Shown: one piece after another, positions 26,410 through 38,242 of the stretch
How the letters are laid out: every line of letters starts with the position of its first letter
Numbering within the stretch: the stretch's first letter is position 1
Source: Methanosarcina mazei S-6
GTDB taxonomy: Archaea > Halobacteriota > Methanosarcinia > Methanosarcinales > Methanosarcinaceae
Direction: 5' to 3'
DNA: 64,000 nt
Assembly (NCBI RefSeq): GCF_000970205.1
Contig: NZ_CP009512.1
Location: 806,001-870,000, forward strand
Made by a program: the position numbers and the translations under genes
The notes under the pieces: model-generated
The model's database searches: none
What the model saw: the letters and a program-made list of their open reading frames with translations, nothing else
What the model was told of the DNA's origin: nothing

Positions 26410-26679
26410 TCAGTAGTTCTCTAGAACAGAGCCGACAATGTTTTTGTAAGTCTCTTTCAGGGAATACACATTATGATCCCCTGTAACGTTTATGCTCAGT
26501 ATTCCGAGTCTCGTATTCATAAGCCCGACCATGGCTGACACTCCCCGGTAGCTTACCTCGAAATTTCCTTTATCAAGGTAGTCATAAACTTCACCGGTGG
26601 TGAACTTGTCTCCGGTCAGGAAGAGATTGAGCACAACCTTGCGTATCCCGTTTTCGTCCCTGCCGAGATACTTTATCAA
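26410..26679 (-). CDS. DUF2551 family protein
   Basis: An 89-aa protein from the TTG at 26679 (IKYLGRDENGIRKVVLNLFL) with a small winged-helix-like fold (TGEVYDYLDKGNFEVSYRGV). It belongs to the archaeal DUF2551 family of uncharacterised proteins. The frame stays open and looks coding for about 15 more residues upstream (TAEERVRAR), so the true start is probably upstream at a non-ATG codon. Possibly a DNA-binding regulator. Confidence 0.7.
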   Translation of the reverse strand: MIKYLGRDENGIRKVVLNLFLTGDKFTTGEVYDYLDKGNFEVSYRGVSAMVGLMNTRLGILSINVTGDHNVYSLKETYKNIVGSVLENY

Positions 26680-27278: not shown

Positions 27279-28049
27279 ATGCACACCAGGAATTTAATAC
27301 TCCCTTCGGTTACTCTGGAAAATATTCCTTTCTTATGGGCAAAAAATGATATCCTGATATTTTTTATTGATATGAATTCTTACGATTCACCGGGTACGGA
27401 ATTTCTGGATAATCACGAAAAAGAAAACCTGGAAAAACTCCAAACACTGTATTTTAAAAAAAGATTTATTGTCTCCAGGACAGTATTGAAACATATCCTG
27501 TGCTGTCTTCTTAATAAGGAGTCTTCCCTGGATATCTCTACTTATAAAGATAGGCATGGAGAAGTCCGTATATTCAACCACGATGATCTGCACATCTGCA
27601 TTTCTTACTCTGAAAACATTGCAGCTATTGCAATATCAAGAGTTAAGATTGGAATTGACATTGAAATTAAAAGGCCGTTTGAACTGAAAAAAACTTTAAA
27701 ATACCTTCACAATACCCCTTTTTATTCCGGCAAGCCTGTAGATGATGTGGGCATTCTAAAGGCATGGACTTTGAAAGAGGCGTATTGTAAATATTCTAAT
27801 ATAGATATGCTTTCCTCTCTAAATAAGAAGCCTGGCCTCGATAATGTTTCTTATTTTAACTTTTTACTGAACGGTAAATATATCTTGTCTATTGTTACTG
27901 AAATGGGCCAGCACATTTTTAATCTAAGCTATCTTGATCTAAGCTATCTTGATCTAAGCTATCTTGATCTAAGCTGTCTTGAGAAAATAAATTCTTATCA
28001 AGGCGAAGCTGTCTGGAAAACCACTGAAAATCTATCAAAACAGGAATAA
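27279..28049 (+). CDS. Sfp-type 4'-phosphopantetheinyl transferase
   Basis: A 256-aa enzyme of the Sfp/HetI type that activates carrier proteins by adding the phosphopantetheine arm of CoA. Motifs are visible: KKRFIVSRTVLKHIL (about 61-75), ICISYSENIAA (about 105-115), GIDIEIKRP (about 124-132, Mg-binding Asp/Glu) and KAWTLKEAYCKYS (about 165-177, WxxKEA). An ACP gene follows 500 bases downstream, its evident substrate. Near the C terminus LSYLD is repeated three times and followed by LSCLE, from a 15-base tandem repeat. Archaea seldom encode such enzymes. Confidence 0.88.
   Translation: MHTRNLILPSVTLENIPFLWAKNDILIFFIDMNSYDSPGTEFLDNHEKENLEKLQTLYFKKRFIVSRTVLKHILCCLLNKESSLDISTYKDRHGEVRIFNHDDLHICISYSENIAAIAISRVKIGIDIEIKRPFELKKTLKYLHNTPFYSGKPVDDVGILKAWTLKEAYCKYSNIDMLSSLNKKPGLDNVSYFNFLLNGKYILSIVTEMGQHIFNLSYLDLSYLDLSYLDLSCLEKINSYQGEAVWKTTENLSKQE
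27924..27983. repeat. Four 15-bp tandem repeats in the PPTase gene
   Basis: Units of ctaagctatcttgat at 27924, 27939 and 27954, and a variant ctaagctgtcttgag at 27969. They encode LSYLD, LSYLD, LSYLD, LSCLE and keep the frame. Confidence 0.9.
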
Positions 28050-28550
28050 GTATTTGAAGAATCATTCGCAGGAAATTCATCTTTAAATAAGGAGGATATT
28101 ATCAACCCGGGACAATTCCACTCAGAAACAATTTTAGCTCTGAAATAATCCTACTCTAAAATAATTTCACTCTAAAACAATTTCACTCTAAATTCTATCC
28201 AGAGCATTTTGTTCCAGAACATTTTGTTCCAGAACATTCTATCCCGGAACAACTCTATTTCAAAACAATCGAATTTATTAAATATTGTTGGCAATAGTCT
28301 TTTTATCGATCCCATATATATAATTGTCGGACTCATATACATCCGATACCGTTATCAGGCTCATACAAACTTTTTTTCTATTCTTCATCTCACAGCATTT
28401 GTCTATTAAATACTCTCAAATTATTTATATAGTTGTATTACATAATTACCTGTGGGGCTTTCAACTAATATGGATAAGTGTGTGTTACTTTATAGATAAG
28501 TGTGTGTTACTTATACTGAAAATTTCAATTAATTAAAGGGGTAAGATTAT
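28050..28550. other. Repeat-rich spacer between PPTase and ACP genes
   Basis: 500 AT-rich bases without a gene. Direct repeats: tttcactctaaa(aca)att units around 28150-28195 and acattttgttccagaacatt around 28205-28240. Plus-strand tttatatagttg (28424-28435) can be the TATA box of the ACP operon, placing the transcript start near 28455. Confidence 0.55.
28473..28515 (+). promoter_or_regulatory. Tandem direct repeat ahead of the ACP gene
   Basis: gataagtgtgtgttacttta at 28473-28492 is repeated after 22 bases, at 28495-28515 (last bases differ). It lies within the predicted leader, 36 bases ahead of the ACP start. Two turns of helix between copies would suit a regulator, but a plain slippage duplication is equally possible. 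Confidence 0.4.
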
Positions 28551-28796
28551 ATGGAACAGATAAAGAACGATATACTCGATTACTTGAAGAACAATTCTTT
28601 CATGGAGCGGGAAACGACTATCAGTGATAGTGATTCTCTCACCCAGAGCGGGATCATGGACTCTATCGGTTTACTTGAATTGATAGATTATATCTGTGAA
28701 ACATATTCCATCGAAATTCCTGAAGATATGTTGACTCCGGAGAATTTCGATTCTTTACAGGGGATTACCAACCTGATAACCAGACTGGCGAAGTGA
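28551..28796 (+). CDS. Acyl/peptidyl carrier protein
   Basis: An 81-aa four-helix carrier protein. The attachment serine is in SGIMDSIGLLELIDY (Ser about residue 41), the classic DSxxxLEL context. Helix III is GITNLITRL. It is acidic, as carrier proteins are. ATG 28551 follows AAGGGGTAAG. The stop overlaps the beginning of the adenylation-enzyme gene, which indicates one transcript. Methanogens do not make fatty acids through ACP, so this carrier must serve another, unknown product. Confidence 0.92.
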   Translation: MEQIKNDILDYLKNNSFMERETTISDSDSLTQSGIMDSIGLLELIDYICETYSIEIPEDMLTPENFDSLQGITNLITRLAK

Positions 28797-28801
28797 GGGG
28801 C

Positions 28802-30280
28802 ATGAGAATTGATGCTTATATCGCTGAGCACGCCAGAAAAAATCCTGATCAGCTAGCTCTTGAAGACGGTAAAAAGTCCATTTCTTACAGTTGCCTTGAT
28901 GAGGACATAAATAAGGTTGCCTCATCTCTGGATGGCTTTGAGCACTGCAAATTTGCAATACTGGCAGAGTCTGGAATACAGTATGTCAAAATACTTATGG
29001 CAGTATACAGGTCAGGCAATATTGCAATACCTCTGCCAATCGAAATGCAGGGGAGAAGCCTTGAAAGAATTCTTGATACTGCATGCATTAACAACATAAT
29101 TGCAACGAAAAAACAGTATTCAAGGTTTGGAGATGGATTTTTTGAGCGTTTTGGAACCGTAATCGTCGTTTCGGATGATACTTCAGTAGAGACGCTCAGC
29201 AGAAGAATGATCCTCGAAAGAAATGATCCCAGGCTTCGGCTGGTGCTTTACACCTCGGGAACAACAGGGACTCCCAAGGGAGTTATGCTGAGCGATAAAA
29301 ACCTGGTCTCAAATGCCAGGTCAATAACCGGGATTCTCAGCATAGGCTCAAAAGATAAAGCAGCACTGGTAATCTCTCCCCATCACGCCTTCGGGAATTC
29401 GATAATTAACTCCCATCTGATGGCTGGAAGCTCAATTCAAATCGGGACAATGAATTTCATAGACCCCGTTTTCAGTCTCATCGAATCCGGAGTATCCATA
29501 TTCTATGGAGTGCCCAGCACCTATCGCATTCTTCTCAAATATCCGGAGAGGTTCCGAAAAGCCTTTCAAAATGTCAGGACTGCCGCCTCCGCTGGCGGAG
29601 CCATGGACAGAACCGTTGTAAGGAGTATCAGGGAATTAAGTCCGGATACGCAGATCCTGCCAATGTACGGCCAGACCGAAGCTACGGCAAGGCTTTCCTA
29701 CCTGCCTGCAGAAGACGTGGACGAGTTTATCGACACGATAGGAAAAGCAATTCCCGGCGTCACACTGGAAGTCTTTGATACTGAAAACAGGCCGGTAGAG
29801 CCCGGCGTCACAGGTGAGCTTGTTGCCAGAGGGGATAATATTCTGCTTGGCTATCTGAATGACGAGGCTGCAACGGAAAAAAAGATCATTGACGGGTGGC
29901 TGCATACAGGGGATCTGGCACAGAAACTTCGCTGCGGGTATATAAAGCTGCTTGGGCGCAAGGACGATCTCATCAAAATAGGGGATCACCGGGTTAACCC
30001 GAGAGAGATTGAAAAAGAAATAGAGATGAATAATGAGGTTTCCAGTGTTTTTGTTGTGCCCGTATCCCATGAGCTAATGGGAAATGCAATCAGCCTCATG
30101 GTCATACCAAATGAGAGAACCGAGATCGATACAATTTTTTCTTTTTGCAGGAAGAACCTGCCGGGTTATCTCTATCCGAGGGAGATCCTCTTCATTGACC
30201 ATCTCCCACTGAGCGAGAACGGGAAAATATCCAACAGGTCTATTATAGAGGAGTACCAGCATGTCAAAGCTAGTATGTAA
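28802..30280 (+). CDS. AMP-forming acyl/amino acid ligase (adenylation enzyme)
   Basis: A 492-aa member of the ANL superfamily. Core motifs: LVLYTSGTTGTPKGVML (A3, about 150-165), MYGQTEATARLSYLP (A5, about 290-304), GWLHTGDLAQ (A7, about 365-374), and the C-terminal lysine region NGKISNRSI (A10). It lacks condensation or carrier domains, so it is a stand-alone ligase expected to load an acid onto the ACP encoded just ahead. ATG 28802 or the GTG at 28793 may start it; the ACP stop is in the same stretch. The substrate acid cannot be read with confidence. Confidence 0.9.
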   Translation: MRIDAYIAEHARKNPDQLALEDGKKSISYSCLDEDINKVASSLDGFEHCKFAILAESGIQYVKILMAVYRSGNIAIPLPIEMQGRSLERILDTACINNIIATKKQYSRFGDGFFERFGTVIVVSDDTSVETLSRRMILERNDPRLRLVLYTSGTTGTPKGVMLSDKNLVSNARSITGILSIGSKDKAALVISPHHAFGNSIINSHLMAGSSIQIGTMNFIDPVFSLIESGVSIFYGVPSTYRILLKYPERFRKAFQNVRTAASAGGAMDRTVVRSIRELSPDTQILPMYGQTEATARLSYLPAEDVDEFIDTIGKAIPGVTLEVFDTENRPVEPGVTGELVARGDNILLGYLNDEAATEKKIIDGWLHTGDLAQKLRCGYIKLLGRKDDLIKIGDHRVNPREIEKEIEMNNEVSSVFVVPVSHELMGNAISLMVIPNERTEIDTIFSFCRKNLPGYLYPREILFIDHLPLSENGKISNRSIIEEYQHVKASM

Positions 30281-31298
30281 GCGGTGTGTTCTGGATTCTG
30301 ATATTCCAGGCATAGAAATCAATAAAGAAAGCGGTCTCTGCCATTTTTGCGAGACATATGTCCCTCTTTCTTTACAGGAAAAGGAAGAATATCTTAAAAG
30401 GATTGAAGGGCTTTTTAAAAAATACAGTGGTACGGGCAACTATGATGTGATATTTGCACTTTCGGGGGGAAAAGACTCTTCATACACGCTTTACAAGCTC
30501 AAAAAAGATTATCCCTTCCTGAAAATACTTGCCGTCCAGTTTGATAACGGGTTCACTTCGGATTATGCCGTAATAAACGCAAAAAAAATGTGCGAGATTA
30601 CCGGATGCGACTATTTTAAGCTGTCAATGGAAAAAGAGGTGCTTTATGACCTCTTCCGGAAAGCAGCCGAATCTTATGATGCATTCCCGAAGTTTGCTAA
30701 ATACAGGGCAAGCGACATCTGCAATATCTGTATCAGTGTAATTAAACAGAAGCTTATAGAACAGGCAATAATTCAGAAAGCGCCTTTTATTGTATTTGCT
30801 TTTACAGCAGGGCAGTCTCCCAATCCCATAATCAATCTGTCAGCTAATTTCATACAGTGGTCAAGGAACCTCTTTGAAAAGCAGCTTCAAAAAATAGGTG
30901 TTGAGGACAGGGACGAGCAGTTCATTATTAAAAATGAGGTCATTAAAAATATAGGTGAGCCTGCTCCATCCATTCTGCACCCGCTTTGCCTGTGGGAGTA
31001 CAGTGAGGATAAAGTGCTTGAGACAGTAATTGGGCTCGGGTGGAAGCCTCCTGAACTTAATGACAGCAATTCTACAAATTGCACGCTGAATTCTTTTGCA
31101 TGTTATAACCATCTGGAAAAGTATGGTTTCCATCCATATGCTTTTGACATAGCTGGGCTTGTCAGAAGCGGGGAGATGCCAAGGGGAGAAGGGCTGGAAA
31201 AGCTCCACCAGGAACTTTCAGAGCCACTGATAGAGGAAGCCGCAGAAAAGCTGGAGGTTAAGGTAAATAATCCGAAAAAAATCCTGCTTAAAATTTAA
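30261..31298 (+). CDS. PP-loop amidotransferase-like enzyme with zinc ribbon
   Basis: A 345-aa ATP-pyrophosphatase of the N-acetyl sugar amidotransferase (WbpG/PseA-like) type. An N-terminal zinc ribbon is made by CKRCVLD (about 5-11) and CHFCETY (about 28-34). The PP-loop SGGKDSSYTLYKL is at about 69-81, and a second cysteine pair CNICISV is at about 153-159. Bacterial relatives convert sugar carbonyls or acids to amides/amidines with ammonia from a glutaminase; no HisH/HisF-like partner is nearby. Coding overlaps the end of the ligase by 20 bases, so it is co-transcribed. Confidence 0.82.
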   Translation: MSKLVCKRCVLDSDIPGIEINKESGLCHFCETYVPLSLQEKEEYLKRIEGLFKKYSGTGNYDVIFALSGGKDSSYTLYKLKKDYPFLKILAVQFDNGFTSDYAVINAKKMCEITGCDYFKLSMEKEVLYDLFRKAAESYDAFPKFAKYRASDICNICISVIKQKLIEQAIIQKAPFIVFAFTAGQSPNPIINLSANFIQWSRNLFEKQLQKIGVEDRDEQFIIKNEVIKNIGEPAPSILHPLCLWEYSEDKVLETVIGLGWKPPELNDSNSTNCTLNSFACYNHLEKYGFHPYAFDIAGLVRSGEMPRGEGLEKLHQELSEPLIEEAAEKLEVKVNNPKKILLKI

Positions 31299-31452
31299 GC
31301 TGTTTCTCTGAGCAAAGGACAGTTTAAATAAAGGGATCCGAAGGCTCAATTGCAGGTTCAATAATCATTTACCTGCAGTTAATCAGCATTTACCTACAGT
31401 AATAAGCTTGCCTGTAGCTTAAATTTATTCAGTGATTTGAAATTATTATACA

Positions 31453-31511
31453 GAATTATAACCAGTTTACATAACAAATTTCTGAATTCATAACCAGTTT
31501 ACATAACAAAT
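31453..31511. repeat. Direct repeat upstream of the NAD-synthetase-like gene
   Basis: ataaccagtttacataacaa occurs at about 31458 and again at about 31490, within the 235-base spacer. Similar short repeats (catttacctgcagttaa / catttacctacagtaa) lie at 31365-31400. They could be paired regulator sites or duplications. Confidence 0.6.
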
Positions 31512-31533
31512 ATTCTGTTAGGGGAGTAGTTTT

Positions 31534-32598
31534 ATGCAGATTGTTGGAAGTAGCGTAGAGAAAACTACGGAGAGTCATGTAAGGGCGTTATCAAAGAAAG
31601 GTGCCGGAAAGCAAATAGATTATAGTGATGTTCTGATTCTGAACGAACTGAACAGGGATATCGGTGAGCTTGCCAAAAATATAAGGGGTTTTATAAGAGA
31701 CCAGGTCACCGGCTTTAAGAAAAAAGGAGTGGTTCTGGGGGTATCGGGAGGTATAGATTCAGCTGTAGCCCTGACGCTATGTGTTCAGGAGTTCGGCAAA
31801 GAAAATGTATATGGTCTCCTCCTCCCTGAAAAAGAATCGGCTCCTTCAAGCAAGACCCTGGGAGCAGAAATCTGTGAAAGCCTGGGTGTCCAGTATGAGG
31901 AGGTCCCTATTTCCCCAATCATTGAGGCTCTGGGAATTTATGACAAAAAAGAACAGATAATTAAAAAAACCTGTCCTGAATACGACCCGAAAATACACAA
32001 AACATCTCTTGTGCTGCCTGATTTCCTTAACCAGGGGCTGTTGAATGTCCCGTACATCAGGCTGATAAAGGACGGGGAAACTATCTCCAGATACAGGTTA
32101 AAAGCAAATGACTACCTGGAGTTGATTGGCCTTCAGAATGTCAAGCAGAGGTCAAGAATGATAGTCCAGTACATGTATGCCGAAAAGCTAAATTATGTTG
32201 TTTGCGGCACAACCAATAAAACCGAACTTGTCCTGGGCCAGTTTGTAAAATACGGGGACGGCGGTGTGGACCTCGAACCTCTGGCAGACTGCTATAAGAC
32301 CCAGATCTATGCTCTGGCAAAATATCTGGAGGTAAATGAGGAAATTATAAAGCGCCCTCCAAGTGCTGATACATGGAGCCATTACACAAGCGACGAGGAG
32401 TTCTACTGGCGTATGCCAATATATATCATGGACCAGCTCCTCTATGCCCAGGAACATAAACTGCCTTTAGAGGTTGCTGAAAGGAACACTGGCCTTCCCG
32501 GAGATATCATAGAAAAAGCCTGGAGGCATATTGACAGAATAAGAGATACTACAGAATATGTGCGTTCGGCTCCTCCTGTTTATTATCTGGATAGGTAA
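31534..32598 (+). CDS. NAD-synthetase-like PP-loop amidating enzyme
   Basis: A 354-aa protein of the ammonia-dependent NAD synthase fold: GVSGGIDSAVALTL (PP-loop, about 70-83), NVKQRSRMIVQYMYAE (about 193-208), GTTNKTELVLGQFVKYGDG (about 216-234) and RPPSADTWSHYTSDEE (about 270-285). It is some 90 residues longer than ordinary NadE because of an insert (about 130-190) and an N-terminal extension. Given the cluster, it may amidate a carrier- or nucleotide-bound acid instead of NaAD (inference). GGGGAGTAG precedes ATG 31534. Confidence 0.82.
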   Translation: MQIVGSSVEKTTESHVRALSKKGAGKQIDYSDVLILNELNRDIGELAKNIRGFIRDQVTGFKKKGVVLGVSGGIDSAVALTLCVQEFGKENVYGLLLPEKESAPSSKTLGAEICESLGVQYEEVPISPIIEALGIYDKKEQIIKKTCPEYDPKIHKTSLVLPDFLNQGLLNVPYIRLIKDGETISRYRLKANDYLELIGLQNVKQRSRMIVQYMYAEKLNYVVCGTTNKTELVLGQFVKYGDGGVDLEPLADCYKTQIYALAKYLEVNEEIIKRPPSADTWSHYTSDEEFYWRMPIYIMDQLLYAQEHKLPLEVAERNTGLPGDIIEKAWRHIDRIRDTTEYVRSAPPVYYLDR

Positions 32599-32663
32599 GC
32601 CGCAAAAACAGGTTCTACATCAAAATTTCATATGGATCTGATCCACAATTCAGATGGATAAGC

Positions 32664-33794
32664 ATGAACACAACAGTCTCAATTGTACGCTGTTCCGACT
32701 ACTCAAAAGTGAAAAGTGCAATCAAAGAGGCACTTTCCCTGATAGGAGGACTTGAGAGTATTATTGCTCCTGGCAATCGTGTACTGCTTAAGCCCAACGT
32801 ACTTGCTATCCGGCCTCCGGAGGATGCTGTTACCACTCACCCTGCAGTAGTATCTGCAATGTGTGAGCTTATCAGGGAAGTGGGCGGCATCCCGATAATA
32901 GGAGACGGGTCAGGGGTTGTGAGACCCGATGTTAGTACTGCGGAGGCTTTTCGTGCATCCGGAATTGAGGCTGCTGCGTCCTCCTGCGGGGCAGAGCTCA
33001 TTAATTTCGAGACATCGGGGTATACTGAGGTCTCTGTCCCCGCAGCCAGGCAGTTTCCACGCCTTTATATCGCAAAAGCAGTCCTTGAAGCTGATGTTGT
33101 TATTTCGCTTCCTAAACTTAAAACACATGAACTGACCCTCTATACCGGGGCTCTCAAAAATTTTTTCGGGGCTGTGCCGCATAAGATCCGAAAGCAGGCA
33201 CATGCTCTGGAAGACCGTGACCGTTTTGGAGAGGCGATAGTTGACATATATTCAATCGTCAAGCCCCACCTTGCAGTCATGGACGGGGTGGTCGGGATGG
33301 AAGGAAACGGCCCTGCCAACGGGACACCCATAAATTCTGGATTGATTCTTGCAAGTTATGACTGCGTAGCCCTTGATATGGTTGCTTCCGAACTCATAGG
33401 GATCGACCCGTTAAAAGTGCCCACAAATAAAGCTGCGCTTTCGAGAGGGTTCGGGAACGGACAGCCAGAGCTTGCAGGAGTGCCTCTGCAAGAAGCAGGT
33501 CTCAAATTTAAGATGGCAGAAGGCGGAGTAACTGCTATGGTGCCTCCTTTTCTTATGAGGACTCTTAGAAAATATTTGACTGTAAAGCCTTTCATAAATA
33601 CATCAAAATGTGCACTTTGCAAAGCCTGCGTTTTGAATTGTTCGGCACATGCAATTGAGGAAATGAACAAAACACTCAAAATTAACCCTGAAAAATGCAT
33701 CCAGTGTTATTGCTGCCGCGAACTCTGCCCTAATGATGCGGTAGAAATCAGGAAGTCCTTCCTGATGAAGGTGGTGACCAGAAGCAGAACATAA
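32664..33794 (+). CDS. DUF362 protein with C-terminal 2[4Fe-4S] ferredoxin
   Basis: A 376-aa protein: DUF362 domain (about 1-290; VLLKPNVLAIRPPEDAVTTHP at 34-54 in part, KTHELTLYTGALKNFFGAVP about 153-172) followed by a dicluster ferredoxin (CALCKACVLNC about 313-323, CIQCYCCRELCP about 344-355). DUF362-ferredoxin proteins are common in anaerobes and presumably carry out a reductive step. It is the probable redox enzyme of the cluster. ATG 32664. Confidence 0.85.
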   Translation: MNTTVSIVRCSDYSKVKSAIKEALSLIGGLESIIAPGNRVLLKPNVLAIRPPEDAVTTHPAVVSAMCELIREVGGIPIIGDGSGVVRPDVSTAEAFRASGIEAAASSCGAELINFETSGYTEVSVPAARQFPRLYIAKAVLEADVVISLPKLKTHELTLYTGALKNFFGAVPHKIRKQAHALEDRDRFGEAIVDIYSIVKPHLAVMDGVVGMEGNGPANGTPINSGLILASYDCVALDMVASELIGIDPLKVPTNKAALSRGFGNGQPELAGVPLQEAGLKFKMAEGGVTAMVPPFLMRTLRKYLTVKPFINTSKCALCKACVLNCSAHAIEEMNKTLKINPEKCIQCYCCRELCPNDAVEIRKSFLMKVVTRSRT

Positions 33795-34038
33795 AGAAAA
33801 GCTGAGCCTGAGTAAAAGCAGGATATGAGGAAATAATCCAATAATGGGAATGCAGAAAATAAGATTCTCTTTAATTTATTGTTATTTATTTCAATCTCTT
33901 TATTCAGGATGCTAGTCCGAAGCAAATTTTTCCGGTCAGAATCCGGTAGGAAATGTTCCGGTCCAGGGCTGACAATGGGAAATATATTTATCAGTAGAAA
34001 AGTAATGAATATAAGTACCAGGCGTTTTTGACCGCAAA

Positions 34039-34602
34039 ATGGGGGGCATTACCATAACTGCCGTAATATCAAACAGAGATAAAGTAACTTTTGGTGAAGT
34101 GGCTGATCATTACCACAGCAATAAACTCATTTTTGGGCTGAAGTACTTTAAGAACTGGGTTCTGGAACGCGTTGCTGCGTGGTTCCCGATTCCTTCATGG
34201 AGAGCTAAATTTCATAAAATGAGAGGCGTGAATCTCGGAAAAAACGTGTATGTAGGCTACGATGTGGTTTTTGACAGGCTTCACCCTGAAATGATCACAG
34301 TGGGAGATTATTCTGAAATAGGAGACCGCTGCATTCTCTCTGCCCATTCCAGAGGCAGTCTGACCACAAGGCAGGCATATCCGAGGACCATAGAGCCCAT
34401 AAAAATAGGGTGTGGAGTTTCTGTAAATCCGGGCTGCATAATTACTCAGGGGGTCGAGATCGGGGATAACTCAATAATCGGTATAGGTTCCGTGGTTACT
34501 CGTGACATTTCTCCAAACAGCCTTGCCCTTGGTTATCCGGCTCGAGTTATCAAAAAACTCGACGGTGTGGGTGAGCTCCAGACCAGTTTTGATGATTCTT
34601 AA
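34039..34602 (+). CDS. Hexapeptide-repeat acyltransferase
   Basis: A 187-aa left-handed beta-helix acyltransferase (LbH, WcaF/NodL-like). The hexad pattern runs from VNLGKNVYVGYDVVF (about 70-84) to IGDNSIIGIGSVVTRDISP (about 149-167), and the C-terminal GYPARVIKKL is the family ending. Such enzymes move an acetyl or acyl group from CoA or ACP onto a sugar or amino sugar. It stands 245 bases after the DUF362 gene, at the end of the carrier-protein cluster, so it may transfer the ACP-bound group (inference). Its ribosome site is weak. Confidence 0.82.
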   Translation: MGGITITAVISNRDKVTFGEVADHYHSNKLIFGLKYFKNWVLERVAAWFPIPSWRAKFHKMRGVNLGKNVYVGYDVVFDRLHPEMITVGDYSEIGDRCILSAHSRGSLTTRQAYPRTIEPIKIGCGVSVNPGCIITQGVEIGDNSIIGIGSVVTRDISPNSLALGYPARVIKKLDGVGELQTSFDDS

Positions 34603-35208: not shown

Positions 35209-35835
35209 CTATTTTTCTTTCCTGTAACCGAACTCAAACCCGAATTTATCCAGAGCAAACAGTGCCATTAATATTACAACAAATACGCAGAAAACGGATA
35301 CAATAGATACCATCAGATAGTGAAACAGGCTTCCTGCTGCTGCAAATCCCGTGTCCATCATTGAGAATACACTGATGGGACTGCTGTACAGCGGATAAAG
35401 GTACTCACAGCCGCCTTCTGCGATATCGTCCAGGAGCAGGTGTGTAAGAAAAGCAGACTCTGCAAAGATTGCCATATAGACTGCTTTGCTGAACTCCCTG
35501 AATGCAGCGTATCCGACAAGCCCTCCGAAAAGGATTGCTGTGAAACTGAACAGGAGTGAGTGTGTCGGGATAGAGCCGATAGAACAGTGCTCCATGGTGT
35601 TGTTTATAATTATGTTATATACAACCATTATATCAGGGAAGAGAGTGCATGCACCGCCCACAAACGCCAGTAAGAGCAGTTTTCTGGCGTCACTGAAAGA
35701 TAGCTCTCTCCGGTAAAGAGGCCCGGTTATGGCATATACGGCTACTATGCCCACACAAAAAAGGAAGAACAAAACATGTACAACTGGATATGGCATCAGA
35801 AACCCTTTTTCAAATGTATCTATTATTTTTTCCAT
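35209..35835 (-). CDS. YdjM-type membrane hydrolase-like protein
   Basis: A 208-aa membrane protein with four or five hydrophobic segments. The pattern THSLLFSFTA (about 94-103), and HLLLDDIAEGG with YLYPL (about 140-157), matches the LexA-binding, inner-membrane metal-dependent hydrolase family (YdjM-like), with His and Asp placed as metal ligands. The function is not established. It faces away from the carrier-protein cluster. Confidence 0.75.
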   Translation of the reverse strand: MEKIIDTFEKGFLMPYPVVHVLFFLFCVGIVAVYAITGPLYRRELSFSDARKLLLLAFVGGACTLFPDIMVVYNIIINNTMEHCSIGSIPTHSLLFSFTAILFGGLVGYAAFREFSKAVYMAIFAESAFLTHLLLDDIAEGGCEYLYPLYSSPISVFSMMDTGFAAAGSLFHYLMVSIVSVFCVFVVILMALFALDKFGFEFGYRKEK

Positions 35836-36010
35836 ACGTGGGGTGTCTGGAGTATTCAGAGTCTTTCATATATGGCCCCCCGGAAGATTAATAATTCTTT
35901 AAACTTTATTGGTCAATCTTCTATAAAATTTTGACCCTTTCTGAGCTTGCTGGACAGATTTTGAATTGGTTTTGTTAAAAGAATAAGGGTATAAGTTCGG
36001 ATATTCATGC

Positions 36011-37072
36011 TCATAAAGGAATGAGCTCTACAAGCATCCCGTCTTCAAATGGATGCCTCTCAATAATGAGTATCTTTGTTCCGGAGGGTTCCAGCTCTTC
36101 TTTAAGCCCATCCTTAAGGTCTTCAAGAACCCACCATGCCAGCTCTATTTTCCCTTCCTTTAATTCAAAAAGTTCTTCAGGAACATCTGCTTCCGTCAGG
36201 ATTTCTTCTGCAAGTGCCTGGTCTCCCCCATCGATAACCCCGTAAATAAGAGTTCCCTCTTCCGTAATCTCGTCAAATTCCCTTGCTGTGTTTTTTGCAA
36301 TTCTCTGAAACCTTTTGCGCAGCTGGACTGCGTCCTTATAGGTGGAAGAGCAGAAATGCACCCTTTCGCAGGCGAAGAAAGCCTTTTCAGCATGCAAGGA
36401 GGAGCCTTCTGCAGCGCACGAAATATCTGACTCAAGGGAAAACCCTTTTTTCAGAAGCGCTTCGGAGTTATTGTCGGAAAATTCCAGTTCGTTGAGGTTG
36501 AGGAAAATCCCCATTTCCTCTGCAAAAGCTGCGACCTTTTCAGCGCCTTCGAGAGAAGGTATTTCAATCCCTGCCTCAATTCCCAGATCCTTCGCATTTT
36601 TCAGGGCGGCTGCGTAAGGGCTTTTTCCCAGTTCTCCCCAGACTGACTGAGGCGGATGGAAGCGTATCTCGTCCAGGCCTGCTTCTGCCAGCTTTTCAAG
36701 GGTTTCCCTATCCGGAGCAAGAGAAGTATAAAGGTGAATATGGTGGTTTTTCCCGAAATAAGCTTTAAGCAGGTGGATATAGTACAGGACTCTCTCTACC
36801 TTAAGTAAGGGTTCTCCGCCTGTGATCCCTGTACCCAGCGCGTCCATAATCTCAGCTTCTTTGATCAGGTCCTCGTCGTTTTTTACATGCCTTTCGTTTG
36901 CAAAAACAAGGTCCTTACCGCGCCTTTCGTCGGAAAGAGGGCAGTAAAAACAGCTTTTAGGGCAGAGCCCGGTTACAAAGAGTACCATCTTGGCACCCTG
37001 CTGGCAGAGTTTACAGCCTTCTGAAAGGTAACTGCAAAAAGAGCCTGTTTCATCCTCTGTGAACTTTTCCAT
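36011..37072 (-). CDS. Radical SAM enzyme
   Basis: A 353-aa radical SAM protein. The [4Fe-4S]-SAM motif is CPKSCFYCPLS (CxxxCxxC, about 37-47), followed by GTGITGGEPLL (GGE motif, about 79-89). Two earlier cysteines in CKLCQQ (about 21-26) may bind another metal. The C-terminal third (about 220-353) lacks obvious cluster-binding motifs. The family appears methanogen-associated; substrate unknown. Confidence 0.85.
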   Translation of the reverse strand: MEKFTEDETGSFCSYLSEGCKLCQQGAKMVLFVTGLCPKSCFYCPLSDERRGKDLVFANERHVKNDEDLIKEAEIMDALGTGITGGEPLLKVERVLYYIHLLKAYFGKNHHIHLYTSLAPDRETLEKLAEAGLDEIRFHPPQSVWGELGKSPYAAALKNAKDLGIEAGIEIPSLEGAEKVAAFAEEMGIFLNLNELEFSDNNSEALLKKGFSLESDISCAAEGSSLHAEKAFFACERVHFCSSTYKDAVQLRKRFQRIAKNTAREFDEITEEGTLIYGVIDGGDQALAEEILTEADVPEELFELKEGKIELAWWVLEDLKDGLKEELEPSGTKILIIERHPFEDGMLVELIPL

Positions 37073-37220
37073 TCTGAGATTGCATATCCTTTTGTCCTAT
37101 ATAAGGATTGTTTCCTGACCTCTTTTTCGGTTGCTGGTGGAACAATGATTTTTTATGAAATATAATTTCCCTGTGCCTGTTCAGAAACTAATATATTCTT
37201 CAGCTTCCAAAGGTTCACTG

Positions 37221-37406
37221 ATGTCAGAGATGAATGGGTATGTTGTGGTTTTCGGCTGTAAAAGGTGCGGCAAGTGCAGGGATGTATGTCCTGTGGGCGC
37301 TATTTATGAAGAAAACGAGCTTGCTAAAATCGATACTGAAAAATGTAACCTCTGCATGAAATGCATAGACGAATGTACCAACAGATCCATTATTTATATG
37401 GAATGA
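37221..37406 (+). CDS. 2[4Fe-4S] ferredoxin
   Basis: A 61-aa ferredoxin: CKRCGKCRDVCPVGAI and CNLCMKCIDECTNRSI, two CxxCxxCxxxC sets. In the second the usual Pro after the last Cys is Thr. ATG 37221 has AAAGGTTC upstream; ATG 37155 would add 22 residues with no family match. It is a small soluble electron carrier next to, but divergent from, the radical SAM gene. Confidence 0.85.
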   Translation: MSEMNGYVVVFGCKRCGKCRDVCPVGAIYEENELAKIDTEKCNLCMKCIDECTNRSIIYME

Positions 37407-37513
37407 TGTGACAGCAAAGCAAGATGGGAACTGAAGAAAATTAGAATGAATTTAGAGAAAAAACTAAAATGAAACCTAAAAGAGTCAGAAAATTCAGGAA
37501 AAGGTGAAATGAG

Positions 37514-38242
37514 ATGTTTCCTCCGGAAAAAATGCCTTTCAAGGGAAAAATTACAGATATTACAGTTCCAATTTCTCCTTCCACTCCTATCTTTCCCGGA
37601 GACCCGGAACCTTCAATCGAAAGTGCCTTTACTATAGAAAAAGACGGGTGTGCAGTATCCAGGCTGATTTTAGGAAGCCATACAGGCACGCACGTCGATG
37701 CTCCTTCTCACATCCTGAAAGATGGACTCGCTGTTGACGATTTAAATCTTGAAAATCTTATAGGTCAGGCGGTTGTTCTGGATTTCTCCTTCAGAAATGG
37801 GGCATTGACAGACTATATTCTTGACAAAGCTTACAATCACCTGAAGAACACTGACCATGTCTCAATTCTACTTCTAAAGACAAAACCTTCTTTCCATTAT
37901 GAAAATAACTCAAGGGTTTCAGGTCTTCAGGCGGGCGAAAGCAATAAAGGAATAGAATTTGAGGAGCCGCCTGAAAATTCTGTTTATCTTGATTCCGGCG
38001 CTGCGGAATGGATTGTCCGGAATGGGTTCAAAACAGTTGGAATTGACAGCTTTTCCGTTGACAATCTCTCTTCGGAAAATCTGTCTGCCCATCATATATT
38101 GCTTTCAAACAACGTGAATATAGTGGAATGCCTTGACATGAGTTCGGTGGAAGCAGGAATTTATTTTTTCCTGTGCCTGCCTCTGAAAATTGAGGGCTGC
38201 GACGGTGCTCCGGCAAGAGCATTGCTGATACCTTACTCCTGA
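37514..38242 (+). CDS. Cyclase/kynurenine-formamidase-like hydrolase
   Basis: A 242-aa metal-dependent hydrolase of the cyclase family. The signature SHTGTHVDAPSH (about 55-66) supplies the metal ligands (HxGTHxDxPxH). A conserved ITVPISPSTPIFPGDP is near the N terminus. Relatives hydrolyse amide or lactone bonds such as N-formylkynurenine. AGGTGAAATGAG precedes ATG 37514. Confidence 0.88.
   Translation: MFPPEKMPFKGKITDITVPISPSTPIFPGDPEPSIESAFTIEKDGCAVSRLILGSHTGTHVDAPSHILKDGLAVDDLNLENLIGQAVVLDFSFRNGALTDYILDKAYNHLKNTDHVSILLLKTKPSFHYENNSRVSGLQAGESNKGIEFEEPPENSVYLDSGAAEWIVRNGFKTVGIDSFSVDNLSSENLSAHHILLSNNVNIVECLDMSSVEAGIYFFLCLPLKIEGCDGAPARALLIPYS

Follow-up and report, generated by a model that had tools for sequence, protein, structure and literature searches.

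What would a methanogen need a carrier protein for? The question is raised by a locus of Methanosarcina mazei S-6 lying at positions 27279-34602 of the 64,000-nucleotide stretch analyzed here (the window; NZ_CP009512.1, 806,001 to 870,000). Its seven genes encode a 4'-phosphopantetheinyl transferase (PPTase), an acyl carrier protein (ACP), an AMP-forming ligase, two PP-loop enzymes that we have called WBUX and NADE, a DUF362 protein and a hexapeptide acyltransferase (Table 1). A preliminary description, based on the DNA letters and open reading frames, had taken the carrier protein as the sign of a dedicated pathway to a special product. We have found that the locus is a real, conserved and vertically maintained archaeal carrier-protein pathway, which is undescribed: no account of the cluster was found in the open-access literature.

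The co-inheritance of the two PP-loop enzymes was striking. WBUX gave a strong match in 29 of the 31 Methanosarcina assemblies, two of these as split matches only; one of the two assemblies lacking it is 99% complete. Over 393 genomes of the phylum, WBUX scored above 400 bits in 33, with the next scores at or below 79 bits. The NADE subfamily (PRK00876) exceeded its cutoff in exactly the same 33 genomes, with zero mismatches, and these included two from other families (Methanoregula and a Methanomicrobiaceae metagenome-assembled genome, MAG). The chance probability of this overlap is ~1e-48, a figure inflated by shared ancestry.

The gene order PPTase-ACP-ligase-WBUX-NADE-DUF362-hexapeptide was maintained in 29 of the 88 examined loci (some of which represent one genome present in two collections), and five-gene subsets recurred elsewhere. 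The grouping is thus far beyond chance. This order is the genus form within Methanosarcina. Other Methanosarcinaceae (Methanococcoides, Methanolobus and Methanomethylovorans relatives) had PPTase-ACP-ligase-WBUX-NADE-SDR, with or without the DUF362 and hexapeptide genes, and in the Methanomethylovorans group the PPTase gene did not adjoin the operon. Since one Methanosarcina locus (L044) still holds the SDR gene, the ancestral operon was probably PPTase-ACP-ligase-WBUX-NADE-SDR-DUF362-hexapeptide, with the FabG-like SDR lost from most Methanosarcina. In Methanoregula, Methanoculleus and other Methanomicrobiales, the ACP, WBUX, NADE and ligase genes, often with that of the PPTase, were found together with their order and strands shuffled, and these clusters often included a GNAT acyltransferase. 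That the linkage survives such rearrangement is the strongest evidence that the five core genes (PPTase, ACP, ligase, WBUX and NADE) work together. The expectation that all seven genes would stay together in relatives was borne out for this conserved core, but not for the DUF362 and hexapeptide genes, which were absent from the examined loci outside Methanosarcinaceae; all seven together are the form seen in Methanosarcina. Four Methanosarcina genomes (L040, L045, L041 and L043) carried the cluster a second time, immediately after iorAB (indolepyruvate ferredoxin oxidoreductase), of which L043 had only an iorB remnant.

Table 1. Genes of the carrier-protein cluster, with their positions in the window and diagnostic features
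Product	Status	Position	Strand	Features
Sfp-type 4'-phosphopantetheinyl transferase (PPTase)	core	27279..28049	+	GIDIE and WTLKEA motifs
Stand-alone acyl/peptidyl carrier protein (ACP)	core	28551..28796	+	phosphopantetheine Ser38 in MDSIG
AMP-forming acyl-ACP ligase	core	28793..30280	+	AMP-binding match; A4 region HHAFGNS
PP-loop/AANH enzyme WBUX (PP-loop 1)	core	30261..31298	+	N-terminal tetracysteine C6, C9, C27, C30; SGGKDS 68-73; putative [4Fe-4S] ligands C154, C157, C274
NAD-synthase-like amide-forming enzyme NADE (PP-loop 2)	core	31534..32598	+	PRK00876 subfamily
DUF362 protein, two C-terminal 4Fe-4S motifs	Methanosarcinaceae accessory	32664..33794	+	DUF362 match
Left-handed beta-helix hexapeptide acyltransferase	Methanosarcinaceae accessory	34039..34602	+	Hexapep match

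The seven genes were confirmed at the positions and on the single strand first reported, and the overlaps noted there amount to 4 bp between the ACP and ligase genes and 20 bp between the ligase and WBUX genes. The initial family labels agreed with the profile matches: PP-binding (PF00550, 25.2 bits, cutoff 20.8), AMP-binding (195 bits), DUF362 (216 bits), Hexapep (39 bits) and, for NADE, NAD synthase (189 bits) and PRK00876 (496 bits, cutoff 313). Two scores fell under their cutoffs, however: that of the PPTase (18.5 bits, cutoff 25) and that of WBUX against the WbuX model TIGR03573 (112.7 bits, cutoff 203.2). Among the core genes, that of the PPTase evolves fastest (46-65% within the genus); its product aligned with Bacillus subtilis Sfp (PDB) across the GIDIE (GxDxE) and W-KEA motifs.

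A search of the whole genome (a single 4.14-Mb contig) returned PF00550 and PPTase-like matches only once each, in the cluster. Because each is the only one detected in the genome, the pairing of this PPTase with this ACP is nearly certain. The ACP residues D37-S38 were conserved in at least 95% of 20 carriers. To our knowledge, methanogens do not use ACP-dependent fatty acid synthesis, and a single ACP fits this picture. The sole ACP, the sole PPTase and the co-inheritance all supported the idea of a dedicated special pathway.

We have then considered what could be loaded on the carrier. The motifs of AMP ligases are present in the cluster ligase, as is the C-terminal Gly-Lys region. In the A (adenylation) domains of nonribosomal peptide synthetases (NRPSs), the Asp of the A4 core (FDxS) binds the alpha-amino group of the substrate. 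This residue is missing from the cluster ligases, which have HHAFGNS at this position in Methanosarcinaceae and FYCYGAS or SYTFGTS in Methanomicrobiales; an alpha-amino acid is therefore an improbable substrate. Identity between the ligases of these two lineages is only ~33%, and their acid-binding A4 regions are unlike, so that each lineage may use an acid of its own. The best matches among solved stand-alone ligases were oxalyl-, fatty acyl-, feruloyl- and malonyl-CoA synthetases, a result that does not amount to a substrate call.

NADE retains the ATP- and amide-forming residues of NAD synthase. A canonical NadE is encoded separately (G000:C1:1017273-1018001, 290 bits), and on this ground housekeeping NAD synthesis by NADE, its paralogue, was rejected. 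An insertion of ~60 residues, absent from the canonical enzyme of the genome, is common to NADE and the rhizobial members of its subfamily. NADE is therefore most likely an ammonia-dependent amide synthase acting on another acid.

The NADE subfamily is frequent on rhizobial megaplasmids (115 plasmid records with a nadE homologue). In Mesorhizobium, Nitratireductor and Sinorhizobium it belongs to a nadE-asnB-AMP ligase-ACP operon (L152, L156 and L179). The ligase between the ACP and nadE is unannotated in the Sinorhizobium meliloti record, and other records name an overlapping adenylate-forming enzyme there. The S. meliloti operon is probably that of SMb20650 (ligase) and SMb20651 (ACP); a passage of PMC7232532, citing earlier work, reports that SMb20650 acylates its ACP in Escherichia coli. 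The rhizobial and archaeal sets share the NadE subfamily (517 bits, 36% identity), the kind of ACP, a TIGR03098-type ligase and a tight operon, but the former has a glutamine-dependent AsnB where the latter has a predicted Fe-S AANH enzyme. The earlier statement that no described system with this gene set was known held for the archaeal cluster, within the open-access literature, but not for the wider kit, of which a bacterial relative has probably been partly studied.

The nature of WBUX is central to the chemistry. Its PP-loop (SGGKDS) has an invariant D72/S73, the Asp-Ser pair needed for ATP use. C154, C157 and C274 were invariant in all members, down to a Helicobacteraceae protein at 25% identity; the CxxC and the third Cys, ~120 residues further on, form a sequence pattern from which the [4Fe-4S] cluster is predicted. 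None of the three cysteines was present in two canonical WbuX proteins that have HisH-type partners. In profile searches the best solved relatives were a Legionella sugar amidotransferase followed by TtuA/NcsA, and the AlphaFold model (pLDDT 92) retrieved WbuX first and then [4Fe-4S] NcsA/TtuA, LarE and YcfA. By hhalign (96.9% probability), C154/C157 fell exactly on the CxxC of NcsA, whose cysteines (Cys142/145 in Methanococcus maripaludis) bind the [4Fe-4S] cluster (PMC10067955). CtaC, which thioamidates carrier-protein-bound peptides in closthioamide biosynthesis, has its cluster site at C154/C157/C284 (PMC6772006). No HisH/HisF-type ammonia partner was recognized among the neighbours of the cluster; in comparison, HisH and HisF are present in L142 and a HisH-type GATase lies beside the canonical WbuX of L101. 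A canonical sugar amidotransferase was rejected on the sub-cutoff score, the missing HisH/HisF and the extra cysteines. By its motifs, WBUX is predicted to be a three-cysteine enzyme of the CtaC/TtuA/NcsA type. A further WbuX-like group of Methanosarcina and Methanomethylovorans (L202:7409-8617, L188, L189 and L191) has the tetracysteine, the CxxC and the third Cys; the only copy examined for its surroundings, L202:7409-8617, had no carrier gene near it.

Similar enzymes occur in several carrier contexts. In a plasmid-borne Roseovarius NRPS (L148:6424-14472), an AANH domain is inserted in the A domain, where it separates the AMP-binding core from the C-terminal subdomain; a peptidyl carrier protein comes next. 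The exopolysaccharide locus that holds this NRPS also encodes a flippase and an acylneuraminate cytidylyltransferase. Streptomyces AANH proteins were either fused to a condensation domain or adjoined an ACP and a ketosynthase. In Helicobacteraceae, a locus for nonulosonic acid (NeuB, CMP-transferase and canonical WbuX, HisH and HisF) encoded a second AANH protein, with an ACP and a GNAT next to it. An S[ST]NC motif was common to all five carrier contexts and missing from the non-carrier proteins, in a small sample.

Besides the rhizobial operon, the following known systems are closest to the archaeal set. The closthioamide (Cta) pathway likewise has stand-alone carriers with an acid-activating enzyme, an AANH enzyme with CxxC plus one Cys, carrier-bound amides and an anaerobic host, but its ATP-grasp, chorismate lyase, peptidyl transferase and transglutaminase have no counterpart in the archaeal set, and a NadE-like gene is not mentioned for it (PMC6772006). 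The N-acetyl sugar amidotransferases WbuX/WbpG/PseA (PDB 8wex) share the fold, the N-terminal tetracysteine zinc site, the PP-loop and the C-terminal motif (PMC10607449); they lack C154/C157/C274, have HisH/HisF-type partners and act on the N-acetyl groups of sugars, with no known need for a carrier. The [4Fe-4S] tRNA thiolases TtuA/NcsA share the PP-loop and the CxxC of a three-Cys cluster (PMC10067955), but have a tRNA substrate and other zinc fingers and C-terminus. The NRPS domains of Roseovarius and Streptomyces share the CN-x-C and S[ST]NC motifs and a carrier-bound context (and, in Roseovarius, the exopolysaccharide neighbourhood), but belong to modular NRPSs of aerobic bacteria and are 24% identical.

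The pathway that we favour would run as follows. The PPTase would arm the ACP, as suggested by their families and by their being the only such pair in the genome. The ligase would activate a non-alpha-amino carboxylic acid and load it on the ACP, in line with what the cited passage reports of the related SMb20650. NADE would use ammonia to turn a free carboxylate of the ACP-bound acid into an amide, and WBUX could adenylate this amide and swap its oxygen for sulfur, giving a (thio)amide acyl-ACP; the chances of this step and of plain amidine or amide formation are about evenly balanced. An acyltransferase (the GNAT in Methanomicrobiales, the hexapeptide enzyme in Methanosarcinaceae) would finally hand the group to a sugar of the surface glycan. 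The whole sequence of loading, amidation, sulfur step and transfer is put forward tentatively, its chances being somewhat short of even. The loading, amidation and transfer logic of the preliminary description fits the gene set, although the sequence does not show the substrate or the transfer target. Its suggestion that thioamides be considered was strengthened by three conserved cysteines as in CtaC, the sulfur step itself being one that we infer. Thioamide chemistry is thus supported, at the level of motifs, as deserving first consideration.

Several observations weigh against this pathway. In rhizobia AsnB holds the place of WBUX; this points to amide formation and is the chief argument against the sulfur step. 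In our alignments C274 did not match the third NcsA cysteine, and CtaC was compared through published residue positions and not by direct alignment. The three-cysteine site also occurs where a WbuX-like protein is encoded far from any carrier gene; the motif was rejected as proof of a carrier-linked role on this ground. In the AANH tree the members associated with carriers were not all resolved as a single group, so that one monophyletic carrier-AANH clade was not retained. Finally, the main locus of most Methanosarcina has no adjacent glycosyltransferases.

WBUX might instead be a plain amidotransferase in the same carrier pathway, making an amidine or second amide on the ACP-bound acid with ammonia, its cysteine cluster being structural or vestigial. 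Besides the rhizobial AsnB, the best NCBIfam, PDB and fold matches of WBUX, all to the N-acetyl sugar amidotransferase family, speak for this. However, WBUX has no HisH/HisF beside it, unlike the canonical WbuX of L142 and L101, and its three extra cysteines are invariant in distant members and missing from these canonical enzymes. We regard this alternative as somewhat unlikely.

Where the product goes was approached through the accessory genes and neighbourhoods. The hexapeptide enzyme is nearest to maltose/galactoside/WcaF-type O-acetyltransferases. In Methanomicrobiales, in one Methanolobus and in one Methanococcoides MAG, the cluster lies among polysaccharide genes (glycosyltransferases, a flippase, UDP-GlcNAc epimerase, UDP-sugar dehydrogenases, a deacetylase and FemAB), and so do the extra copies in Methanosarcina. 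At the main locus the glycan-related neighbours are a nearby cis-prenyltransferase and AglB, ~25 kb upstream. From these neighbourhoods, a surface glycan is the favoured transfer target. A free specialized metabolite, such as a closthioamide-like metal chelator or antibiotic, would have a precedent in closthioamide itself, whose biosynthesis follows the same logic with a carrier protein, a ligase and an AANH thioamide synthetase (PMC6772006), and would agree with the related AANH domains of NRPSs and with a main Methanosarcina locus outside glycan clusters. It is nevertheless improbable: the pathway is near-universal in the genus, more like a cell-structure or core function, the cluster contains no exporter or condensing enzyme, and the glycan genes listed above surround it in the lineages named there and at the extra copies.

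As to the DUF362 protein, genome G004 has lost the cluster gene, the cluster-type gene of G003 is found only at the second copy, and so is the intact gene of G014. Of 10 Methanosarcina that were checked, 8 (one of them lacking the cluster) encode a ~60% identical paralogue elsewhere in the genome. An essential role is weakened by the loss in G004 and by the paralogue; the predicted structure (pLDDT 44) was discarded. A DUF362-ferredoxin paralogue adjoins groES/groEL in Methanosarcina (L200:7223-8362 and L201:6597-7721), and does so in a cluster-free genome as well.

A housekeeping role, with NADE making NAD, WBUX modifying tRNA or sugars and the neighbours unrelated, agrees with the family names but is hardly credible, given the separate canonical NadE and NcsA, the perfect co-inheritance in 33 genomes and the linkage kept through rearrangement. 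The patchy distribution of the families argues against methanophenazine or other respiratory cofactors as the product.

Some features around the cluster may be recorded. Downstream, at 35209-38242, genes for a YdjM-like membrane protein, a radical SAM protein, a small ferredoxin and a kynurenine-formamidase-like protein trail the cluster in most Methanosarcina genomes, and elsewhere do not travel with it. Upstream, on the minus strand (26410-26679), lies the gene of an 89-aa protein that is 97-99% identical in most Methanosarcina, far above the conservation of its neighbours, and that had no NCBIfam match. No tRNA or Rfam matches were found close to the cluster.

The cluster would be the only carrier-protein pathway of a major methanogen genus and, being present in nearly all of its species, an unexplained core trait. 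It brings together two rare kinds of enzyme, Fe-S PP-loop enzymes that depend on a carrier and amide synthases resembling NadE, and through it a single testable chemistry connects the versions seen in archaea, rhizobia and NRPSs. Since Methanosarcina species amenable to genetics are among the hosts, the question could be settled quickly. That Methanosarcinales and some Methanomicrobiales build a carrier-bound thioamide (or thiocarboxylate) acyl group and attach it to surface glycans or glycolipids is, as a specific proposal, unlikely on present evidence. If true, it would represent an archaeal carrier-templated thioamide pathway and a previously undescribed sulfur-containing group of the cell surface.

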